The translations under genes were made by a program, and so were the position numbers. The notes under the pieces were generated by a model, which had not been told where the DNA came from, searched no databases, and was given only the letters and a program-made list of their open reading frames with translations. Positions 5 through 9,955 of a DNA stretch of 25,470 bases are shown one piece after another. The stretch comes from a virus, in IMG/VR virus record IMGVR_UViG_3300027977_000183, positions 1 to 25,470 of that record. The stretch is one strand, 5' to 3'. Positions within the stretch are counted from its first letter, which is position 1. Each line of letters starts with the position of its first letter.

Positions 5-1567
5 CTATTTGTGCCACTTCGTACCGGATGCACTTTTAAACACACCTTCAAAACGCTTATCCCCTCCCCTGTTCATGTTCACAAAGTTCCCCCTGGTCAT
101 TTGTAGGCGCTCTAACTTAGATACCGTTCCTGAACTCGTTTCCACTTGCTTAATCCGGTAAATTTGTGGGCTTCGTTGTAATTGCTCGAACATGCCCCGG
201 TTCAATTCATTGATGGGTTCTGAAATGTACACCAGCTCGTTTTGTGCATCTGTAATAGTGTCTACTCTGGCAACATCCTGTATTTGATCTTCGTAATCCC
301 GGCCCCCAGGCTCAAAAATTCGCGTTGCTGAGGTCACGCCCTGGTTGAGCGCTCGGAGTTCTCCAAATCGGATGCTATCAAAACTGCCAACATCGCCCAG
401 GTAAATGATCACTTCTTTGCAATCACAATCCTGATGTGAAAATGTTCTGAATAACTTTTCAGAATATGCGGTTTTCACGTCAACATCTGTGTAAGCAAAG
501 ACTTGAATATCTACACTATCAGCAAACTCAAGTAGGCCCGTATATGATCCGTTAAGGGTTCCAGTTGGCACAAAAAAGAAACGATGAGCGTCGGTGTCGG
601 GGCTTGCTGCTACGGTTTCAGTGGTTTCTCCGATGTGAATTGTAAACTCGATTAAAAAAGGATCGGCGGTGCGCCATGCTCCGTCGTTGACCAAGTAAAT
701 ACCCGCAAGCTCAAAGAAGTCATTGCATAGATACCGCCTCAAGGGGTTGCCCGTCACCCACTTTACAAGGGGATCACCTGGGCCGTCGTCGCTGGGGTCG
801 CTGGTGTATGGCGAAAATCCTAATTGGTCAGTGGGTTGAAAAATGGAATTGACAAGGGTAAACAAATCACCTTGTACAACTTCCTCCACGTCTTGTTGGC
901 AAATGCTGTTTTGGTTAATGAGTGCGGCTCTAAAAAGAATGTCCATCCAAAATTTATCTTCAGCCCAAAAGGTAGTGTTCGTTTTTGGTTCGTAGGTATT
1001 GAACAGGAAAGCGGGGTCTAACTTGATTGAACACACCCCATTTGCCCCACTTGGATCAATTGCCGAACTTTTGCGGCCCGCAATGCGGGTTGAATCTTTG
1101 TACAAATCCCAAATCACAAACTTGCTTTTTCGGCTTTCGGTGGTGCCGTTGGTGCTTGATACCGTTGGCGGGTTAACAAACGATGCAAAAGAAAAAGAAA
1201 AAGGAGAAAGTGCGCCAGGCTTTGACTTGGTGGCCACTACTTGCCCATTGTTATGCACTACAACCCAATCAAGAAAATCAGGGCTGATCGAAAGCATGTT
1301 GGCGAAATTCCTTGCAGTGTTTACCTCGTTGGCTTCATGCTCGTAGGTTGTAGCGGTGTAAGGCTCTGCTGAATCGGTGGCGAAAAAGGTATTCACTATT
1401 ATTATTGCAAGCGCATCGGCTTCGGCCCCTGGATCGAAAGTAATTGTGAAGGTGGCGTAAGCGTCAGCACTATTCAAAAAATCCGTTGTGCCTAGCAGCC
1501 ATTCCAAGTACTTGCTTTTTGGCTGTGGTACAGTGTCGCTTGGTTGCTGTGTTATGGTGAAACTCAT
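5..1567 (-). CDS. Tail-associated structural protein, unassigned
   Basis: A complete 520-residue protein directly downstream of the tape measure gene; its ATG overlaps the tape measure stop in an ATGA junction. I do not recognise a named domain. The sequence is rich in beta-forming stretches, Thr, Asp and Phe, has no signal peptide or membrane segment, and contains a short Cys pair (DCDC) around residue 385. Genes in this position in siphophages usually encode distal tail or tail-tip components that contact the tape measure, so a tail-tip or baseplate-like role is inferred from position only. The C-terminal ~100 residues are more charged and could be a separate attachment domain. Confidence 0.6.
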   Translation of the reverse strand: MSFTITQQPSDTVPQPKSKYLEWLLGTTDFLNSADAYATFTITFDPGAEADALAIIIVNTFFATDSAEPYTATTYEHEANEVNTARNFANMLSISPDFLDWVVVHNNGQVVATKSKPGALSPFSFSFASFVNPPTVSSTNGTTESRKSKFVIWDLYKDSTRIAGRKSSAIDPSGANGVCSIKLDPAFLFNTYEPKTNTTFWAEDKFWMDILFRAALINQNSICQQDVEEVVQGDLFTLVNSIFQPTDQLGFSPYTSDPSDDGPGDPLVKWVTGNPLRRYLCNDFFELAGIYLVNDGAWRTADPFLIEFTIHIGETTETVAASPDTDAHRFFFVPTGTLNGSYTGLLEFADSVDIQVFAYTDVDVKTAYSEKLFRTFSHQDCDCKEVIIYLGDVGSFDSIRFGELRALNQGVTSATRIFEPGGRDYEDQIQDVARVDTITDAQNELVYISEPINELNRGMFEQLQRSPQIYRIKQVETSSGTVSKLERLQMTRGNFVNMNRGGDKRFEGVFKSASGTKWHK

Positions 1568-4500
1568 ATTTTACTTTTTTGTTCTGCCTGTGTAATCCTT
1601 TCATTTTCTCGGTTGGCTACAACTAGCCCGGCCTCTACCCCTCGTTTAGCTCCGACTCCAACGGCGGCAGCCATATTCTGGATCGAGTTGGCATCTATTG
1701 AAACCATGCTAATTCCACCGGACACGCCAACATTCATTTTGGAAAAATTCGGCTCAAGCAATCCCCCTTGCTCAAACTTCACCCCGTAACCCCGATCCGC
1801 ATTGATGGCAGATAACACAACCCGTTTGCCTGGGAAGTTTACCGCGCTGAGTTGTTTCAAAATAGGGTAGTAGCGCCCGGTGTTGTGCTTATTGATGATG
1901 GCGGTTCCCCCTTGACCATCATCACCTATCCATTCCCCGCCTTCGGCTTCAATAGTGGTGCTGCCTACCTGAACAGGAACGCCCCCGTGTGCGTGGCTTG
2001 GGCCTTTTATGATCATGCCTTTGGCGGCTTTTTGTGCGCTGATTTGGGCAATCTGTGAAGTAGTGGTAAATGTCAGAAACGCAATTTGGGCAGCCTTGTA
2101 AAGTGCGCCCAATGGATCAGGGATAATTGATGGAGTAGCCAGGATGTTAACCGTACCGGATGCCAGCGAAGAAAGCGCCGCCGCAATCCTAAACCGCTTT
2201 TGCTGTTCAAACTCTTTCTTTCTTATACGCTCCTGCTCTGCTGCAAGCTCCTTTTCAAGCTTTTCTTTCTTTTTGGTGTTATCACCTGCCAACTCAATTT
2301 CTTTGGCGTAACGCTCTTCTATGGCGTTTAATTCAGACTCATTTCTCGCACTAGCAAGGCCAGATATTGCGGCCCCGGCCTCTGTGAGCGTGTCAAAGAA
2401 TCGGCCAGAGGTAAAGAAGTCGCCAAACTCTTCAAGCAAAGCATCTAAACTCACCTCTAAATCTGTCCTGGTTCTGGTTGTGAATTGCTGCACACCTTCG
2501 CCAATTTCTTTTCCAAGGCCAGCAAGCCTAGTGAGAAGGCTTTCTCCAACCACTCGCAACCCCTTTTCGGATACCTGCACCTGCTTTATTGCCCCGTCCT
2601 CAGTTACGGTTTGGGTACGCTGGAATGTCTTTTCTGAAACGTCCTGAACTTCCTTTACTGCTTCTACAAATCCGGTCAAGTTATCAATCAGCGCCTTTTG
2701 TTCCTTTTCGGCTTTTCCTAATTGGTTCTTTGCAGAAAACAAGCGTTCAAATAATGCGGGTTGGTCTTTGGGTGCGGCCTTTTCAATCTCCCTTTCTAGC
2801 TTTGATACTTCCCCTTTTAGAAATGCAAGCGACCCCTTTGCAAACTCTTCAGCGACTTTTTTAGCCTTGGTGATGCTAGTGGTTACCTTATCGACTTTCT
2901 TCGCTGCTTCTTCATTCCCTGCTCCGAATTGGAGTACATCTTCCTTTCCTGTCTTTAGTAGATCGGTGAAGGTTTTTAGATTCTTTACAGGCGTTGTAAA
3001 TAAGTTTTGAATAGGCTTTGTGACTATGTCGTAGAATTGGCCAATGCTTCCAACTGTGCCGTTTAGCGTCTTTCTTATTGCGTCAATTACGGAAAATATT
3101 GTACGAAATGGAACGAGCGCAACCTCGCCAGCCTTTCCAAGAATTGACAACGTAGCACCAAAAGAAGTCGCCTCTTCGTCTGCTGCTCCAAAGCTTTTTG
3201 AAAGGTCGCCTACTAGGTCAAAAAGTGGCTGTATGGTTGTTCCTAAGTCCCGGAATGCTTGGATAGTCAAAATCAAAGCCTCTAAAAGCTGGGTTTGGAT
3301 GATCGTCGTTACATCCTCCAAATTTGTTCCAGCCCCGCCAATGGCCTCGGATACCTCTACGACTTTCCGGTTAAACTCTGTATTGATTTCAAGCGTGCGA
3401 AGCTGTGCGGTTTGGTATTCGTTGGTGGTGTCTATCAACGAAAGCGTGGCTTGGTCAACATCTTTGAGGGACTTGATAAACTGTATGCCAGCATCCTCAC
3501 CCGGGCCTCTGAACACATCCGCAAGAACAGCCCCGGCCTTTGGCCCATTTTCTTGCACTGTGTCAAGTTGCTTGGCTACCTCAGCAATGGCCCCGCCTAT
3601 GCCCTTTTCGCCAATTATTTTTTGGATTTCCTCGCCGCTGATTCCAATTCCTTCCAGTGCCTTGAGTGTAGCTGGGGTAAGTTCTCGCAAGCTCAGTGCC
3701 GCTTCTTTAACTGCGTCGGCTCCTTTGTCGGAAAAAATACCCTCTGTCGCTTGTCTGTTGGCGACTTTGAAAAACTGATCTGCATTGAGTCCGGCCTCTT
3801 GGAATAGCCGTGGGTACTCGCTAACGGTGTCTAAGAACTCACCATTGGCATTTGAACCTGCAACAAACCCCTCTTCAATCCTGGTTAGTGCTTCGCCAAA
3901 GGTGATGTTAAAAGCATTGGCAACGGCGTTGGCGCTTTCAATGATCTTGGTTTGATCCTCTCCGAAGGTGTCAGCAACGCCTTTTATTCGTGCGGTAAAG
4001 TCGTCAAGATCAGCCCCTGATGCGTCGGTAAGTGTTGATATTTCCCCTCGTAATTCCCGAATGCCTTGCACCAATTCGTAGACATTTTGCAAGGCCCCTA
4101 TTAAAGCTTCTCCTATTGCCGCTGCTGCACCTGGGATTGAAGCGAATGCGGCAATGTCAAACCCTGACAGTTGGGTGAATACGCCTTGGAAGGCTTCGCC
4201 GTAATTACCAACATTGCGTTGAAATTGACCCAGGCTTGCGTCTATGTCCTTTAATTCCCGGTCAAGTTCTTGAATGCGCCTCACTGTTTCCTCTCCAAAT
4301 GATCCCCGGCGCTCCTCTGCTGTGAGGTCTTTATAGGAGTTGCGAAGCCGCGACAATTCCGCATTCAATGCCCGGTATGAGTTCTTGCCCTTATCGGCGT
4401 TTTGCTGAAACTGATTGATAGCGTTTCGCTCTTCCTGGCGTTGCTGCTGCTGTATTGCCCGTAAGGCTGCAAGCTGTTCACTGAGTCGCTTATACTCTTC

Positions 4501-4626
4501 GGTGTTGAACTTTTCAGCTTTACGGGCATTGGTGGTTTCCCGTATGGCCCTAGCTAAATCCTCCTGGCTTTCAACCGCCGATTTAACACCTTTAATCTCA
4601 ACTTCGTATATAAGGACTCTGGTCAT
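1564..4626 (-). CDS. Tail tape measure protein
   Basis: A 1020-residue protein with the layout of phage tape measure proteins. The N-terminal ~150 residues are charged and coiled-coil-like, with many Gln, Glu and Arg. A hydrophobic, Ala/Ile-rich patch follows near residues 155-180, then long helical repeats, a second strong coiled coil near residues 775-825 and another hydrophobic stretch to about 865. The C-terminal part has a GPSHAHGG motif (about 875-882) followed by an EAEGGEW stretch, a pattern I associate with tape measure proteins of Bacteroidota phages. The protein sets tail length and helps DNA entry; at about 0.15 nm per residue it would fit a tail near 150 nm (inference). Both ends overlap neighbours by ATGA junctions. 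Confidence 0.88.
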   Translation of the reverse strand: MTRVLIYEVEIKGVKSAVESQEDLARAIRETTNARKAEKFNTEEYKRLSEQLAALRAIQQQQRQEERNAINQFQQNADKGKNSYRALNAELSRLRNSYKDLTAEERRGSFGEETVRRIQELDRELKDIDASLGQFQRNVGNYGEAFQGVFTQLSGFDIAAFASIPGAAAAIGEALIGALQNVYELVQGIRELRGEISTLTDASGADLDDFTARIKGVADTFGEDQTKIIESANAVANAFNITFGEALTRIEEGFVAGSNANGEFLDTVSEYPRLFQEAGLNADQFFKVANRQATEGIFSDKGADAVKEAALSLRELTPATLKALEGIGISGEEIQKIIGEKGIGGAIAEVAKQLDTVQENGPKAGAVLADVFRGPGEDAGIQFIKSLKDVDQATLSLIDTTNEYQTAQLRTLEINTEFNRKVVEVSEAIGGAGTNLEDVTTIIQTQLLEALILTIQAFRDLGTTIQPLFDLVGDLSKSFGAADEEATSFGATLSILGKAGEVALVPFRTIFSVIDAIRKTLNGTVGSIGQFYDIVTKPIQNLFTTPVKNLKTFTDLLKTGKEDVLQFGAGNEEAAKKVDKVTTSITKAKKVAEEFAKGSLAFLKGEVSKLEREIEKAAPKDQPALFERLFSAKNQLGKAEKEQKALIDNLTGFVEAVKEVQDVSEKTFQRTQTVTEDGAIKQVQVSEKGLRVVGESLLTRLAGLGKEIGEGVQQFTTRTRTDLEVSLDALLEEFGDFFTSGRFFDTLTEAGAAISGLASARNESELNAIEERYAKEIELAGDNTKKKEKLEKELAAEQERIRKKEFEQQKRFRIAAALSSLASGTVNILATPSIIPDPLGALYKAAQIAFLTFTTTSQIAQISAQKAAKGMIIKGPSHAHGGVPVQVGSTTIEAEGGEWIGDDGQGGTAIINKHNTGRYYPILKQLSAVNFPGKRVVLSAINADRGYGVKFEQGGLLEPNFSKMNVGVSGGISMVSIDANSIQNMAAAVGVGAKRGVEAGLVVANRENERITQAEQKSKI

Positions 4627-5162
4627 GCTGCTATGTTTCGTGCTTCTTCAATGGCCGCTTGGTAGATTTCATCAAAGTTTTCCACCAAAAGCTCGAATAC
4701 CTTGAATTGTTCTTGAATGATTTTGTCTGCATTCACCTCAAAGCCAAACTTTATCCACTCAGTACGCCTACCGTTCTTTGAAAAGGCAAACGATCCAGGT
4801 AGCGGGAAACCAAGTATAGTGGCTTTATTGAGCGTTAGGAACGTGAACCGCTTTAAATTCGACTCAGAAAGCCCAGGTTTTACGACTCTGGCCCACTGTA
4901 ATAGCCTTGCCTGGGCCGCCGCACTTGTGTCTACCTTACTCGCTGGTATTCCCGTGTCCAAATCTAAAAGGTAATCGTTGCCTTCAATGCCAATGCGCAA
5001 AGTATCTCCGACACTTTCGACAACTTTTGCCTTTAATGAGGCTATGCCTTGACCTGTTGCAACGTGGCCCTGTTCCCTCAATTCGTCCTTGCCTTTTTCT
5101 ACTAGGCTTTCCACGGCGTTGAGGGCAATACCTACCAATTCCTGATACGTGACTATCCGCAT
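4623..5162 (-). CDS. Putative neck or tail-completion protein (HK97 gp10-like)
   Basis: A 179-residue protein just upstream of the tape measure gene. The N-terminal helix followed by an ATGQG..SLK stretch and a DYLLDLDTG segment (residues 63-71) resembles the layout of HK97 gp10-type proteins, which join head and tail or close the tail end. This is a fold-level impression. The ATG at 5162 lies inside the end of the upstream gene (10-bp overlap), and the stop overlaps the tape measure start (ATGA). No membrane segment or signal peptide is visible. Confidence 0.45.
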   Translation of the reverse strand: MRIVTYQELVGIALNAVESLVEKGKDELREQGHVATGQGIASLKAKVVESVGDTLRIGIEGNDYLLDLDTGIPASKVDTSAAAQARLLQWARVVKPGLSESNLKRFTFLTLNKATILGFPLPGSFAFSKNGRRTEWIKFGFEVNADKIIQEQFKVFELLVENFDEIYQAAIEEARNIAA

Positions 5163-5893
5163 GACTCGCAGTTTGTGACAGGGACAACGAATTGGGCAAA
5201 ATCCTTGTAAATCATTCTCGTTGTCTCAACTTCACAAACCTGAATTGTAAGCGGCGTTGCATATCCACGCGCCCCGCCTATCGCTCCGTCACTCCATTTT
5301 GTAAAAGCCCAACGGGCGTTTGGCACAATAAGACTTTCGATCCATTCGCCTTGGGTGCTAAGTAGCCCGTATGTGTCTTGCTCAATTAGATAATTTGCCT
5401 CTGGTTGGGTAAACCAAAAATCATCAGTACCGTTGGTGAATACTTCGTGTTTCAAAAGCCTGCGAAGAAACGAGCGAAGAATGTAGAAAGAGTTTTGAAA
5501 GGCGCTTTCGGTTTCCAGGACTTCCGGAGGGCAATTCTCGCAAGTGTTGCGGTCAAAAGCAATGATGTTTAATTCCAGGTAAACCCGGTCGCTTTCGATT
5601 GAGTCGGTATAGCTTCCAGTTTCTTCAATCACCAATCCGGGGTATTCAAAGACCATCTTAGACGGATCAGCCCCCGCCGCATCCCAGTTACGGGAAAAAA
5701 AACGCCCGGCCTTGTAATCGCCATACGTCGCCCCCAATGATGGGTGCATGACGCTGGGTTGCATATCGTCCACAAAAGCAGCAAAGGAGTTAACCCGGTG
5801 AGGCACTCCCTTTTTGTTTTGTTCCCTTGAGGCCATTTGGGCCACGATCTTGCGGCAAATGGCAATGAAGTCATTTTTGGTTAGTACTTTCAC
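5153..5893 (-). CDS. Structural-module protein of unknown function ending in CESCG
   Basis: A 246-residue protein between the probable tail-assembly pair and the gp10-like gene. It starts with GTG, and that GTG overlaps the upstream TGA stop. No domain is recognised. It is aromatic-rich, has a Cys pair (CENC) near residue 140 and ends in Asn-CESCG. The same five-residue ending occurs in the small gene after the large terminase. The position suggests a neck, tail terminator or tail completion role, inferred from context only. Confidence 0.55.
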   Translation of the reverse strand: MKVLTKNDFIAICRKIVAQMASREQNKKGVPHRVNSFAAFVDDMQPSVMHPSLGATYGDYKAGRFFSRNWDAAGADPSKMVFEYPGLVIEETGSYTDSIESDRVYLELNIIAFDRNTCENCPPEVLETESAFQNSFYILRSFLRRLLKHEVFTNGTDDFWFTQPEANYLIEQDTYGLLSTQGEWIESLIVPNARWAFTKWSDGAIGGARGYATPLTIQVCEVETTRMIYKDFAQFVVPVTNCESCG

Positions 5894-6135
5894 ACCCGTG
5901 AATTTTTAAGTGAAGTAAGAAAAACAAAATCCTCAAAGTCGCTTTTCCAAAGTGATTCCATACCTCCGATGTACCATTGTTCCCGTAGTGCTGCGTCCAG
6001 TAGTAACCGCCACCCCATCAGCTCGAAAGCTTCCCGCGCCGCCGCTTCACGATCCCTGGTTTCTTTCGACTTAGTTCCTGAACCCTGGTAGGGCGAGCCG
6101 TTCCAGAAGAATTGGTAGTCTGGTTTTGCAGCCAA
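5890..6135 (-). CDS. Downstream reading frame of a probable frameshifted tail-assembly pair
   Basis: This frame encodes an acidic/aromatic segment with the sequence style of a real protein (for example a WNGSPYQGSG stretch and a helix with REAAAREAFELMGWR). The only start inside it is a TTG at 6135. The frame is open further upstream, through the T9 run at 6154-6162 of the preceding gene, and lies in its -1 frame. A -1 slip there would join it to the preceding product. The alternative is an independent small gene with a TTG start, or a broken single gene if the T run is miscounted. The stop (TGA) overlaps the GTG of the next gene. Confidence 0.6.
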   Translation of the reverse strand: MAAKPDYQFFWNGSPYQGSGTKSKETRDREAAAREAFELMGWRLLLDAALREQWYIGGMESLWKSDFEDFVFLTSLKNSRV

Positions 6136-6821
6136 AGTAAGTATGAATTGATCAAAAAAAAACGAAGGATTAAGACTTCGCCAGCGGTTACGGTTCTGAA
6201 AGTTTGCATCCTATCGTTTAGAAAAGATTCCAACTCTTTTCTGTTCCAGGGTAGCACCTCCCCTTTCTTTCTTACAAGTATTGCCAATTCTCGCAGCCCT
6301 AAAGTAAAGTCCATACTACCCAAAGCAAATTTCTTTTCTTCCAGGTTTTTTTCTGCGATGCGTCGAAACTCAAGCACTTCAATTGCTTCGCCTGTACTCA
6401 CACCCTCCAAGGTCAAAAACTTAGCCGCCTTGAGTTGATCCAATTGGTATTCTTCGCCGCTGACAACCAACTTGAAAACTTTGTCTTTGAGCGTTTCAGG
6501 CTTGAAGGTGTTGATAACTGTGTTCAAGTGTGCGTACAGACGCATAACAGACAGATCGGCTTCCAGTGTTACAGTAAAGCCGTTCAAAAACAATTCTTCA
6601 ATCGGTTCATCAAGCGAAAACGGTAAGTCCCAAATCCAATCTCCGTACACGTAATCTAATGCCCTGGTGATTGCAATGATTGCAGCCTGGCTGTCTTCTG
6701 TTTCTTGTGCTGTAAAATATTCCTGCTCTTGGTCTTTGAAGTCGCAAAACGCCTCCCACGGTATTTCATGTGCGGTAAGTGGTAGATTGATTGTAGCTCC
6801 GGTAGATAGTTGTGCAATCAT
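6018..6821 (-). CDS. Putative tail assembly chaperone, frame-0 product
   Basis: A protein of 267 residues if started at the ATG at 6821, which overlaps the previous stop as ATGA; a TTG two codons earlier is also possible. The N-terminal ~220 residues are acidic and helical with normal composition. After the T9 run (residues 221-223) the frame-0 sequence becomes Arg/Lys/Thr-rich and looks out of frame. This matches the gpG/gpGT type of tail assembly chaperone, in which a slippery site gives a short and a -1 frameshifted long form; here the long form would be about 310 residues. The function is inferred from architecture and from position upstream of the tape measure gene. Confidence 0.6.
   Translation of the reverse strand: MIAQLSTGATINLPLTAHEIPWEAFCDFKDQEQEYFTAQETEDSQAAIIAITRALDYVYGDWIWDLPFSLDEPIEELFLNGFTVTLEADLSVMRLYAHLNTVINTFKPETLKDKVFKLVVSGEEYQLDQLKAAKFLTLEGVSTGEAIEVLEFRRIAEKNLEEKKFALGSMDFTLGLRELAILVRKKGEVLPWNRKELESFLNDRMQTFRTVTAGEVLILRFFLINSYLLWLQNQTTNSSGTARPTRVQELSRKKPGIVKRRRGKLSS
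6154..6164 (-). promoter_or_regulatory. Candidate -1 frameshift slippery site (T9)
   Basis: The coding strand reads CGT TTT TTT TTG in frame 0, giving a perfect T_TTT_TTT heptamer. Slipping by -1 continues into the open frame that ends at 5890. The next frame-0 codons give poor-looking protein, while the -1 frame gives a convincing one. No clear downstream stem-loop was identified by eye. A homopolymer-length error in the assembly would give the same picture. Confidence 0.5.
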
Positions 6822-7327
6822 CCGCAAGATTCACATTCGCCTGACGTTTCCCGCCCGGCTTTGGCTGAGTAATCTAGTTCCTTTTTGTACTCGCTTGGCT
6901 GCTTGGCTTGCTTTGCGGGTATCTCTTTGGGTTGGTGGTTGAGTCCTTCTTGGTTCAAAAAGAAGTCCACAATGCGAGGTTTGTCAGCTATGTAGAACTC
7001 ACCCAAGGAAAGCATCATTGAGCGCCAGAATTGCGCCCTAAACCCTGCTTCTTTGGCATCTTCATATGCTTCAAGTAGTGCGTTAAAAATAGCCTCTGCT
7101 TCGGGGTGTACCCACTCGCTTTTGATGGGTTCCATCACATCTACATCAACCTCGCCTTTTAGGAAGCTTTTAAGGGCTTCCGCAACTTCTGAAAAGTCGT
7201 TTGATGGGTAATTTACCTCCCCTCCAATGACCAACATTTCTTTATTGAAAAGCGTGGTCATAAGGAAATTAAATTTGTTCAATTCCTTTGGTGGTGTTTG
7301 TTCAATTTCGGTTTTGACTTTTGCCAT
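6818..7327 (-). CDS. Protein of unknown function after TerL, ending in CESCG
   Basis: A 169-residue acidic protein starting at the ATG at 7327, 10 bp after the large terminase stop; upstream in-frame codons overlap the terminase gene and are less likely. It is largely helical, with an acidic middle and a Lys/Gln/Pro-rich linker before the tail. It ends in Gly-Glu-CESCG, the same five residues that end the 246-residue protein at 5153. Its stop overlaps the next ATG. In a classical gene order the portal would sit here, but at 169 residues it cannot be one. A head-tail or tail structural role is possible from position. Confidence 0.6.
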   Translation of the reverse strand: MAKVKTEIEQTPPKELNKFNFLMTTLFNKEMLVIGGEVNYPSNDFSEVAEALKSFLKGEVDVDVMEPIKSEWVHPEAEAIFNALLEAYEDAKEAGFRAQFWRSMMLSLGEFYIADKPRIVDFFLNQEGLNHQPKEIPAKQAKQPSEYKKELDYSAKAGRETSGECESCG

Positions 7328-7337
7328 TATGTTTGAT

Positions 7338-8588
7338 TTATCCTTTACCTGTTTTGATTTCCCCCGGCCTTGGAACATGCTTCACAATCCAGGTAAACCC
7401 ATATCGACCAGCGTCCAAGCTGTGGTTATATTGATCTATCGGAGTGTCGCTTTTCTTGTCGGCCCACACATAGTTGTCAAGCTCGTTTTTGATGTTTGGG
7501 CTATCGGACGTAACAACGATTTCATAATCCTTCATGTCTTTGATGCCCTGAATAATGGAGTTTGGCCCTTTCTTCGCCTCAATCACCCTAAACCCCTTGG
7601 AGCGCAAAAACATTACAGTGCGCTTTTCGTTGGTATCCGATACAATGGGCTTGCCCTTATCCGGTATCGCGTCCTCCATCATCCTTAAAAGCCCCTCATT
7701 TGAAAGCTCCGTTTCGTAAATCAATTCTTTGAGGTAAATCTTTTTCCGCTTTCGATCCACTGCAATCTTCACAAGTGCAAGCGGGTCAGGGAAGTACCCA
7801 AAGTCCATAGCGTAAATATACGGTAACTTTTCATCAAATACACCCTCGGACCAATCCTCGTAAATTACACCCTCTGCTTTTTCAATCCATTGGCCAATGA
7901 TGTAATGGCCATACTTCTTTGGGTTGTTGACCTTGAGGTCGTAAATCCTGCGAAGGTAAGACTCTGAAAGGTTGTCTTTGTTGTCCAGGTACGTGACGTG
8001 GATGTGTGTAACGTCTGGGTGTGTGGAGATACTCACGGGCACCCCATCAATAATTTCAGTCCTGCGAGTGTCTTGAATCCAACGCTTGTAAACCCAGTGG
8101 GTTTTATTCGTCGGGTTCATAATCAAGATGATCAGGTTTGTTTTGTTTTTGTCCCTGATCGAAAGGTCAATCTTATCAAATTCATCCTCATTGGTCAATT
8201 CCTCGGCTTCATCTAGCACAAAAATATTGGACTTGATTGACTTTAGTTTTGCGGTTTGGGATTTAGACCCGGACTTTAAGCCCCTGAATGATACGGCTGA
8301 TCCGGTAGAGCCGCAATACACATCGTTTTTCTTTTGGGTAAAGTAGGGGTGAAGGTTTTGAATGTCGATCTTTTCAGCAAATTCAAGGACTACCGAATCA
8401 TTGGCCGCCGCCATTGTGTAGCGGGTGTATAAGATTCTTTGGTTGTGATGCTCTGCCATGATACGAGAGCAAAGAAGGGTAATAGCAAAAGACTTAGCAG
8501 CACCACGGCCACCAGATAGCAGAACGTAGCGAGTTTTTGGAGCTTCAAATAAGGGGGCAAACTTTTCATTTACTCGGATTTCACCCAT
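7338..8588 (-). CDS. terL: Terminase large subunit (Terminase_3/PBSX-like)
   Basis: A 416-residue DNA packaging motor. The N-terminal ATPase has a Walker A GGRGAAKS (residues 26-33), a Walker B with catalytic Glu in IFVLDEAEE (122-130) and a coupling motif around LIMNPT (155-160). The C-terminal RNase H-fold nuclease shows its acidic residues in MDFGY (D262), SDTNE (D318) and SLDAGRY (D392). The length is normal for the family. It translocates DNA into the procapsid and cuts the concatemer. It starts at an ATG inside the end of the small subunit gene. Confidence 0.93.
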   Translation of the reverse strand: MGEIRVNEKFAPLFEAPKTRYVLLSGGRGAAKSFAITLLCSRIMAEHHNQRILYTRYTMAAANDSVVLEFAEKIDIQNLHPYFTQKKNDVYCGSTGSAVSFRGLKSGSKSQTAKLKSIKSNIFVLDEAEELTNEDEFDKIDLSIRDKNKTNLIILIMNPTNKTHWVYKRWIQDTRRTEIIDGVPVSISTHPDVTHIHVTYLDNKDNLSESYLRRIYDLKVNNPKKYGHYIIGQWIEKAEGVIYEDWSEGVFDEKLPYIYAMDFGYFPDPLALVKIAVDRKRKKIYLKELIYETELSNEGLLRMMEDAIPDKGKPIVSDTNEKRTVMFLRSKGFRVIEAKKGPNSIIQGIKDMKDYEIVVTSDSPNIKNELDNYVWADKKSDTPIDQYNHSLDAGRYGFTWIVKHVPRPGEIKTGKG

Positions 8589-8974
8589 ACTATTTTTGGA
8601 ATGTCTGCCAATTCTTGTGTTGTTCCAACGCCCATTTGAAGCAGTCGTTTACCGTATCCCCTGGCGCTGCCCTTGTTGTTCAGCACATACATGATAAGCA
8701 TATGGTTGCCCTCTGCTATTTGCTTGTACATATTCATCTCTACGAAGTCCAGGTTGTTTTCTTGTATCTCAAGTACGGTATTTGCATACTCCTGGTCTTC
8801 GTTCACCCATCGCCAGTGAGTGCTTCGTTCAATGCCCACTTTCTCGGCTGCTGGCTTGACAAGTCCAAACGTCGTTTTAAGCGCGTCAAGCATCTGCTTT
8901 TTTTGTGTTGCAGTTCTGGCCTTGCGTGTGGCGTTTCCTTTGTCCCTATCTGCCTGGGTTAGCTCGTGTGCCAT
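8570..8974 (-). CDS. terS: Terminase small subunit
   Basis: A 134-residue protein when started at the ATG at 8974; an in-frame start nine codons upstream would sit in the terminator T tract and is less likely. Residues ~25-60 form a helix-turn-helix (KPAAEKVGIERSTHWRWV), the DNA-recognition fold of small terminases, followed by a helical segment suitable for oligomerisation. It overlaps the large subunit gene by 19 bp, the usual arrangement. It should recognise the packaging site and regulate TerL. Confidence 0.85.
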   Translation of the reverse strand: MAHELTQADRDKGNATRKARTATQKKQMLDALKTTFGLVKPAAEKVGIERSTHWRWVNEDQEYANTVLEIQENNLDFVEMNMYKQIAEGNHMLIMYVLNNKGSARGYGKRLLQMGVGTTQELADIPKIVWVKSE

Positions 8975-8986
8975 ATAGTGTATTTG

Positions 8987-9012
8987 AAAAAACGGGGACA
9001 ATAAAGCCCCCG
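8987..9012 (-). terminator. Probable intrinsic terminator between DUF5131 gene and terS
   Basis: On the minus strand the stem CGGGG/CCCCG (9008-9012 with 8993-8997, 10-nt loop) is followed at once by T6 (8987-8992). It lies between the DUF5131 stop (9034) and the terS start (8974), at the boundary between the modification genes and the packaging/tail genes. The stem is only 5 bp but entirely G/C. No TAnnTTTG box was seen between it and terS, so late transcription may read through. Confidence 0.6.
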
Positions 9013-9033: not shown

Positions 9034-9906
9034 TTATACTGTTTCAAGTAACAACTTGTCTTTTTCCCCTTCTTTCTTTGGTTTCCCGGCTTCAATCCAA
9101 TCTAAGTAGGCGTTGTCAATTTTCAAGCGATCCCCTGGAATGCGGGGGAACTCGCTCCAAAACTTCCCGTCTAATTCTCTTCCTGCTGCCTCTGGATATG
9201 CGCCGCCCCACTGCTTGTGAAAAAACTTAGTGCCTGCCCTTATCGCTTCGTCTCTTATTTCCCTAACCCAGTCCATCCGATCTTCGCGAGGGAACCATGT
9301 TTTTGTTGGCTTGTCGTAAAAAACAAGTCCGCGTTTTTCACACTCTTCTTGCTTCCACATGTGTGGGCCACTTTCTCCACCTGTAATCACCCATTGGATT
9401 GTTGATAGGTCTAATTTTTCAAGTCGCTCTATAAGCGGCTCAAAAGAAACAAACCTTATCTCTGCCTCAACTTGCTTGAGTATGTCAAGCCGATAAAGCG
9501 ACTTTTGGTTTTCAATCGTGGTTCCAGCCCAAAAGTTAGGCGGCAACTTTCTCCGCTTACTATATTTAAGCATTAATTCAGGTCGCTTCGTTAGAACCTG
9601 ATATTCATGCTGCGGAGTCTGTTCAATCACATCAACAATCTGGTCTCTGTAGTACTCTGGCACCTCATCCCAAAAAAGGTCTGACATACTATTTGTAAAA
9701 ATCATAGTCGGTTTCTTGAGCTTAAGCGGCTCTTTAAGTTTGTGTGGCCTGATCGTTAGATCAAAGCCATTTGGAAAAGCGGCTGTACCTCTGTATTTTT
9801 CAGCAAGGGTTAGAGCGTAACACCATTTACACCCCGCTGAAATTTTCTTGCAGCCAGACATTGGATTCCATGTTGCTTCTGTCCAAATAATACCTGTTTC
9901 GTTCAT
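9034..9906 (-). CDS. DUF5131 family protein (phage Gp37/Gp68 type)
   Basis: A 290-residue protein started at the ATG at 9906; the longer in-frame start would overlap the methyltransferase gene by about 30 bp. The N-terminus has WNPMSGC...GCKWCYA with Cys19, Cys26 and Cys29, the three-Cys motif of the DUF5131/Gp37-Gp68 family. The later KP..IFTNSMSDLFW, QVLTKRP and WVITGGESG segments are also typical. The three Cys suggest an Fe-S cluster or radical-SAM-like fold, but the biochemical role is unknown to me. It follows the ParB-methyltransferase gene. Confidence 0.82.
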   Translation of the reverse strand: MNETGIIWTEATWNPMSGCKKISAGCKWCYALTLAEKYRGTAAFPNGFDLTIRPHKLKEPLKLKKPTMIFTNSMSDLFWDEVPEYYRDQIVDVIEQTPQHEYQVLTKRPELMLKYSKRRKLPPNFWAGTTIENQKSLYRLDILKQVEAEIRFVSFEPLIERLEKLDLSTIQWVITGGESGPHMWKQEECEKRGLVFYDKPTKTWFPREDRMDWVREIRDEAIRAGTKFFHKQWGGAYPEAAGRELDGKFWSEFPRIPGDRLKIDNAYLDWIEAGKPKKEGEKDKLLLETV

Positions 9907-9955
9907 TTTTTTTTCATTTTGGTTAATAATACCCAATTTACTGATTATCAGCGTA

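Follow-up and report, generated by a model that had tools for sequence, protein, structure and literature searches.

Organisation of the locus

The window analysed here is a 25,470-base virus record (IMGVR_UViG_3300027977_000183), the minus strand of which carries, in order, genes for the small and large subunits of the terminase, a 186 aa protein, a gene in which the reading frame appears to change, two proteins of 246 aa and 179 aa, a tape measure protein and a 520 aa protein. In relatives, the order continues with a protein of around 700 aa, then a head protease and then a capsid-like protein, so labelled from its position only. The small terminase subunit (8570-9001, 143 aa) matches phrog_4044 (E = 1.4e-8), and the large subunit (7338-8588, 416 aa) matches both Pfam PF04466 (E = 8e-29) and phrog_2 (E = 1.4e-41). 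The tape measure protein (1564-4626, 1020 aa) was recognised through phrog_37298 (E = 1e-53) and the tape measure family phrog_1506 (E = 2e-6), along with a PhageMin_Tail match just below the Pfam cut-off and tblastn matches to annotated tape measure proteins. As the earlier note had remarked, two genes separate the frame-change gene from that of the tape measure; these are the ORFs at 5153-5893 (246 aa) and 4623-5162 (179 aa), which might be guessed from gene order to encode a tail terminator and a neck or completion protein respectively. Judging from the relatives of the terminase, the phages carrying the frame-change gene probably infect Bacteroidota.

The frame-0 ORF of this gene (6018-6821, minus strand) runs from an ATG at 6821 to a TGA at 6020-6018 and encodes a short product of 267 aa. 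Within it lies a run of exactly nine Ts (6162-6154), read in frame 0 as CTT CGT TTT TTT TTG ATC, of which the first seven (6162-6156) constitute the T_TTT_TTT heptamer that the earlier note had placed at the frame junction, an in-frame example of the X_XXY_YYZ motif. The frame-0 stop is 48 codons past T9, and the -1 frame, which opens 48 nt ahead of the run, continues to a TGA at 5892-5890, its part from T9 onward forming an extension (5890-6162) of 90 codons and a stop. A -1 slip at the heptamer would yield 219 residues, then R-F-F, then F-D-Q-F and onwards, giving a 310-residue fusion; hence the ORF layout agrees with the pair of products that had been proposed, both of which are likely to be made. 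Two small overlaps mark the ends of these frames. At 6016-6020, the sequence TGATG combines the stop of frame 0 with an overlapping ATG in the -1 frame; at 5890-5893, GTGA combines the stop of the -1 ORF with the GTG that starts the 246 aa gene, a 4 nt overlap that recurs at several other junctions in the cluster.

Runs of this length are not rare by number in the window: a dinucleotide model predicts around 3.8 A/T runs of at least nine and two are seen, and T_TTT_TTT occurs in frame five times among the genes. However, T9 at 6162-6154 is the only run of at least nine inside any gene, and is placed exactly where the two frames meet, in the only stretch that would permit a frame change. The other nine-base run is a T9 on the plus strand (9906-9914, A9 on the strand of the gene), just ahead of where the gene at 9034-9906 probably starts.

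Conservation among relatives

The same layout, with T9, the frame-0 stop and the 90-codon -1 ORF, was found in nine close sequences (L002-L010) from eight IMG/VR contigs. Two of these are identical to the window in the compared region; in the others, the protein, where complete, is 91-94% identical at the amino acid level. For the frame-0 product, identities in close relatives are 90-94%, and across the clade the -1 extension is 94-98% identical. Taken alone, the invariance of T9 in this close clade is weakly significant, as invariance is also seen at 78 of the 183 third positions that could be compared. A scan of IMG/VR with a junction pattern allowing seven Ts followed by zero to three arbitrary bases recovered one new distant homologue, L066 (4281 bp), which has the matching order of small terminase subunit, large subunit, unnamed gene and frame-change gene, and has exactly nine Ts; the scan found no other run length in any homologue. 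Relative to the window, L066 is 40% identical before T9 (88/218 aa) and 52% identical in the -1 extension (43/83), but only 27% identical in the frame-0 tail (11/41). The 26 nt block CCTTCG-T9-GATCAATTCAT (6143-6168) is identical in the two sequences, 20 nt of it having belonged to the search pattern that retrieved L066. As that pattern contained the T run and GATCAATTC, L066 is a biased rather than an independent test of T9, and homologues using other slip sites would be invisible to it.

Searching GTDB genome contigs with protein patterns returned no homologues, nor did cultured phages produce a match in tblastn searches that used the gene itself, the homologue from L066 and the two genes downstream. 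The earlier note had advised comparing homologues for a conserved overlap, and T9 with both ORFs is retained in the nine close sequences and in L066; the run of eight or ten Ts that it had considered as the alternative, which would make a single continuous frame, was not encountered, T9 being unchanged in all the homologous sequences found.

A number of other features were observed around these loci. Both genes flanking the frame-change gene (6818-7378 and 5153-5893) encode nearly the same C-terminal tail, C-E-S-C-G, the upstream 186 aa protein ending in GECESCG; in L066, the C-termini of both neighbouring ORFs, of 194 aa and 252 aa, read C-[DE]-S-C-P, followed in one case by a Q. These two otherwise differing proteins have a CxxC tail in common. 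The surroundings of the frame-change gene also appear to be a gathering place for extra genes, with small insertions upstream of it in L006, L007 and L008, and directly after the -1 stop in L004 (3400-3886) and L010 (after position 304), each of these last two starting ATGA. L004 and L005 represent both ends of a single 34 kb contig, IMGVR_UViG_3300020017_000145, which contains two inverted, diverged copies of the module; the copies are identical over roughly the outermost 1.75 kb at each end and diverge further in, and assembly has probably merged two related phages into a chimera. A local sequence difference in the record of Flavobacterium phage 6H (L063, 4567-4573), either an error or a mutation, breaks into two frames a gene that phage 23T carries whole; as no T run is involved, it was rejected as a comparable case.

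Selection on the two reading frames

Substitutions within the clade were counted as distinct types, rather than through a full codon model. Before T9 they follow frame 0, with 155 synonymous and 47 non-synonymous changes (omega of around 0.12). From position +37 to the frame-0 stop, the pattern is that of the -1 frame, in which there are 17 synonymous and four non-synonymous changes, against four and 18 in frame 0; past the frame-0 stop, the corresponding counts are 28 and 10 in the -1 frame and four and 34 in frame 0. Omega for the -1 frame is around 0.09-0.13 from +37 onward. These counts indicate that the downstream -1 frame is under purifying selection and that the frame-0 tail is not. Between +9 and +36 the signal is reversed, with five synonymous changes and one non-synonymous in frame 0 and one and five in the -1 frame, although this amounts to just six changes, four of which come from a single haplotype shared by L007 and L010. 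In L066, by comparison, the -1 residues are kept right after T9 and frame 0 is lost after LINS. The first dozen or so frame-0 codons past the run look constrained within the close clade, where the stretch may be dual-coding, such that the first residues of the short product after T9 may also matter, whereas its basic tail seems not to. The earlier description of frame 0 as poor-looking beyond T9 holds for the rest of the tail, though perhaps not for these first codons, and the -1 frame is, as described there, convincing protein.

Evidence for a frame change at T9

Together, the nine close sequences, L066 and the frame-wise substitutions bear out the proposal that T9 joins two frames of one gene; by these comparative measures, the run is shown to be the junction, with the -1 frame translated and both ends conserved. 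We regard a frame change at this site as highly probable, and it is very probably a conserved, programmed -1 event. The notion that one continuous ORF is concealed here by gene decay, or by an error of sequencing or assembly, can be all but dismissed: whilst homopolymers are error-prone, T9, the frame-0 stop and the -1 ORF recur in contigs from several metagenomes and in a homologue at 40% identity, and both frames are conserved. Independent initiation of the -1 part is also unlikely, as the first ATG, GTG or TTG is found around 48-49 codons past T9 in L066, L007 and L010; in L066 it is excluded, because there the -1 frame opens just 18 nt before the run and no start codon follows for around 49 codons.

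Ribosomes might instead terminate at the frame-0 stop and reinitiate at the overlapping ATG, making a 42 aa C-terminal peptide with no change of frame. The overlap is kept, as TGATG or TAATG, in 9/9 sequences compared although the preceding leucine codon varies; yet 65% of the leucine codons used in the window would preserve it by chance, and a later start cannot explain the conservation of the -1 frame between T9 and the ATG (the 17 synonymous and four non-synonymous changes given above), nor the retention of DQFI....P.Y.FF..GSP in this interval in L066. As a replacement for the frame change, reinitiation is thus very improbable, though the 42 aa peptide may be an extra product. Slightly less credible still is a change of frame some 36 nt beyond T9, at the switch of the selection signal within the clade. 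Beyond the few, largely single-haplotype changes on which that switch is based, the site has no slippery motif (CTG CAA AAC CAG), and dual coding of the first dozen codons accounts for both signals; it was set aside as a real shift site after the comparison with L066. The 4 nt overlap at the -1 stop, as at neighbouring genes, and the ATGA beginning the genes inserted there in L004 and L010 suggest that ribosomes do reach the end of the -1 frame.

Ribosomal or transcriptional slippage

If the frame does change at T9, most expression would end in frame 0, producing the 267 aa protein, and a fraction would switch to the -1 frame, producing the 310 aa fusion with its conserved C-terminal domain. 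Most likely, this would happen through a one-base backward slip of the ribosome while tRNA-Phe occupies both of its sites, T_TTT_TTT permitting perfect re-pairing of both tRNAs. We lean towards the ribosome as the slipping machine, since it is by ribosomal frameshifting that phage tail genes usually change frame (PMC5009743). No stimulatory RNA structure downstream of T9 is shared among the sequences compared (z-scores of +0.96, +0.53 and +0.14), and L066 has a z-score of -2.1 for a different fold. Such structures are common at -1 frameshift sites, but are not required.

The alternative, which we consider a serious possibility if the less favoured one, is that a single U is added through slippage of RNA polymerase on T9, so that a U10 message is read in one frame through to the end of the fusion; a U8 message would stop at once, at a +1-frame stop at +8, resulting in a third, shorter product. 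The lack of an RNA stimulator is consistent with this, as is the presence of an A/T run of at least nine at a conserved frame transition, this being the only such run inside a gene of the window. Nine is the run length from which selection against slippage is evident in many bacterial genomes (PMC1088944), and the run also falls among those described as Tn with n>8 (PMC3711429). In Shigella mxiE, addition of a U at such a run brings a second ORF into frame (PMC1088944; PMC3711429). The two systems are alike in that a T run joins two overlapping ORFs and the end of the extension overlaps the next gene; they differ in that the gene here is concerned with phage morphogenesis and RNA polymerase slippage is only a candidate. 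Against this, the run holds a perfect tandem -1 heptamer, and tail chaperones usually employ ribosomal slippage. Furthermore, the eighth and ninth Ts are fixed anyway by the leucine codon and the -1 frame, hence run length alone cannot distinguish ribosome from polymerase. More speculative, and on balance unlikely, is the further suggestion that polymerase slippage on T9 sets the ratio of the two products whilst translation of the next gene is coupled to the -1 stop; were this true, one slippery run would tune the dose of two proteins.

Role of the encoded proteins

The position of the gene and its two-product design make it reasonably likely, by analogy, that it works as a tail assembly chaperone in the manner of gpG/gpGT. 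The 267 aa and 310 aa products would then probably serve tail assembly as a comparable pair, and the extension would give the longer one a second surface for binding. The whole explanation, combining two-frame decoding, a ribosomal slip and a gpG/gpGT-like tail assembly pair, we hold to be slightly favoured. Conservation of the frame change in the window, the nine close sequences and L066 is as expected of such a pair. Relative to lambda gpG/gpGT, the sequence is unrelated, the slip site is T9 rather than G_GGA_AAG, and the gene lies two genes before that of the tape measure, with no major tail protein gene identified upstream. The defining row of tail tube (major tail protein) gene, chaperone gene and tape measure gene is absent, as the 246 aa and 179 aa genes intervene on one side and the 186 aa gene and that of the large terminase subunit lie immediately upstream on the other. 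Neither the frame-0 part nor the -1 part is similar to any named family in Pfam, PHROGs or PDB sequences, and hhalign found no profile similarity to an annotated Elizabethkingia chaperone. AlphaFold predicts a helical frame-0 protein at very low confidence (pLDDT 34), a hint at most, and gives a pLDDT of 42 for the 246 aa neighbour. The earlier reading of the gene as a gpG/gpGT-like tail assembly protein therefore stands with respect to its two-frame, two-product design, but gains no profile match to chaperone families, and we describe the gene as acting in the manner of that pair rather than as belonging to its class.

It is plausible, if less so, that the frame change is real and the protein is something other than a tail assembly chaperone, such as a connector or adaptor between head and tail that is produced in a shorter and a longer form. 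The gene lies close to the terminase genes, with two others between it and the tape measure gene, and a protein that by eye alone resembles a tail tube is encoded far off, after the capsid gene. Flavobacterium and Cellulophaga phages also have proteins of similar size and position: phrog_25418, which includes Cellulophaga phage Ingeline gp5 and Flavobacterium phage laban gp17, consists of proteins of approximately 260-302 aa encoded upstream of neck and tape measure genes in Bacteroidota phages, with a similar-looking helix before the equivalent of the junction, but each is a single ORF rather than a two-frame gene. The likeness is not significant, as the hhalign score of 15.5 is within the range for shuffled sequences (mean 14.4, maximum 19.5) and the phrog_25418 profile gave no hit at E values up to 10; hence this by-eye resemblance was dropped.

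Implications

As a phage gene decoded in two frames, the gene is of an ordinary kind, but its sequence family is new, adding one without named relatives to those already known. Gene callers otherwise give the 267 aa ORF only, missing the conserved C-terminal domain. With an invariant T9, no RNA stimulator and homologues down to 40% identity, the family also provides a clean test case for ribosomal versus transcriptional slippage. Its position in the cluster suggests that two-frame genes of this kind need not adjoin the tape measure gene.
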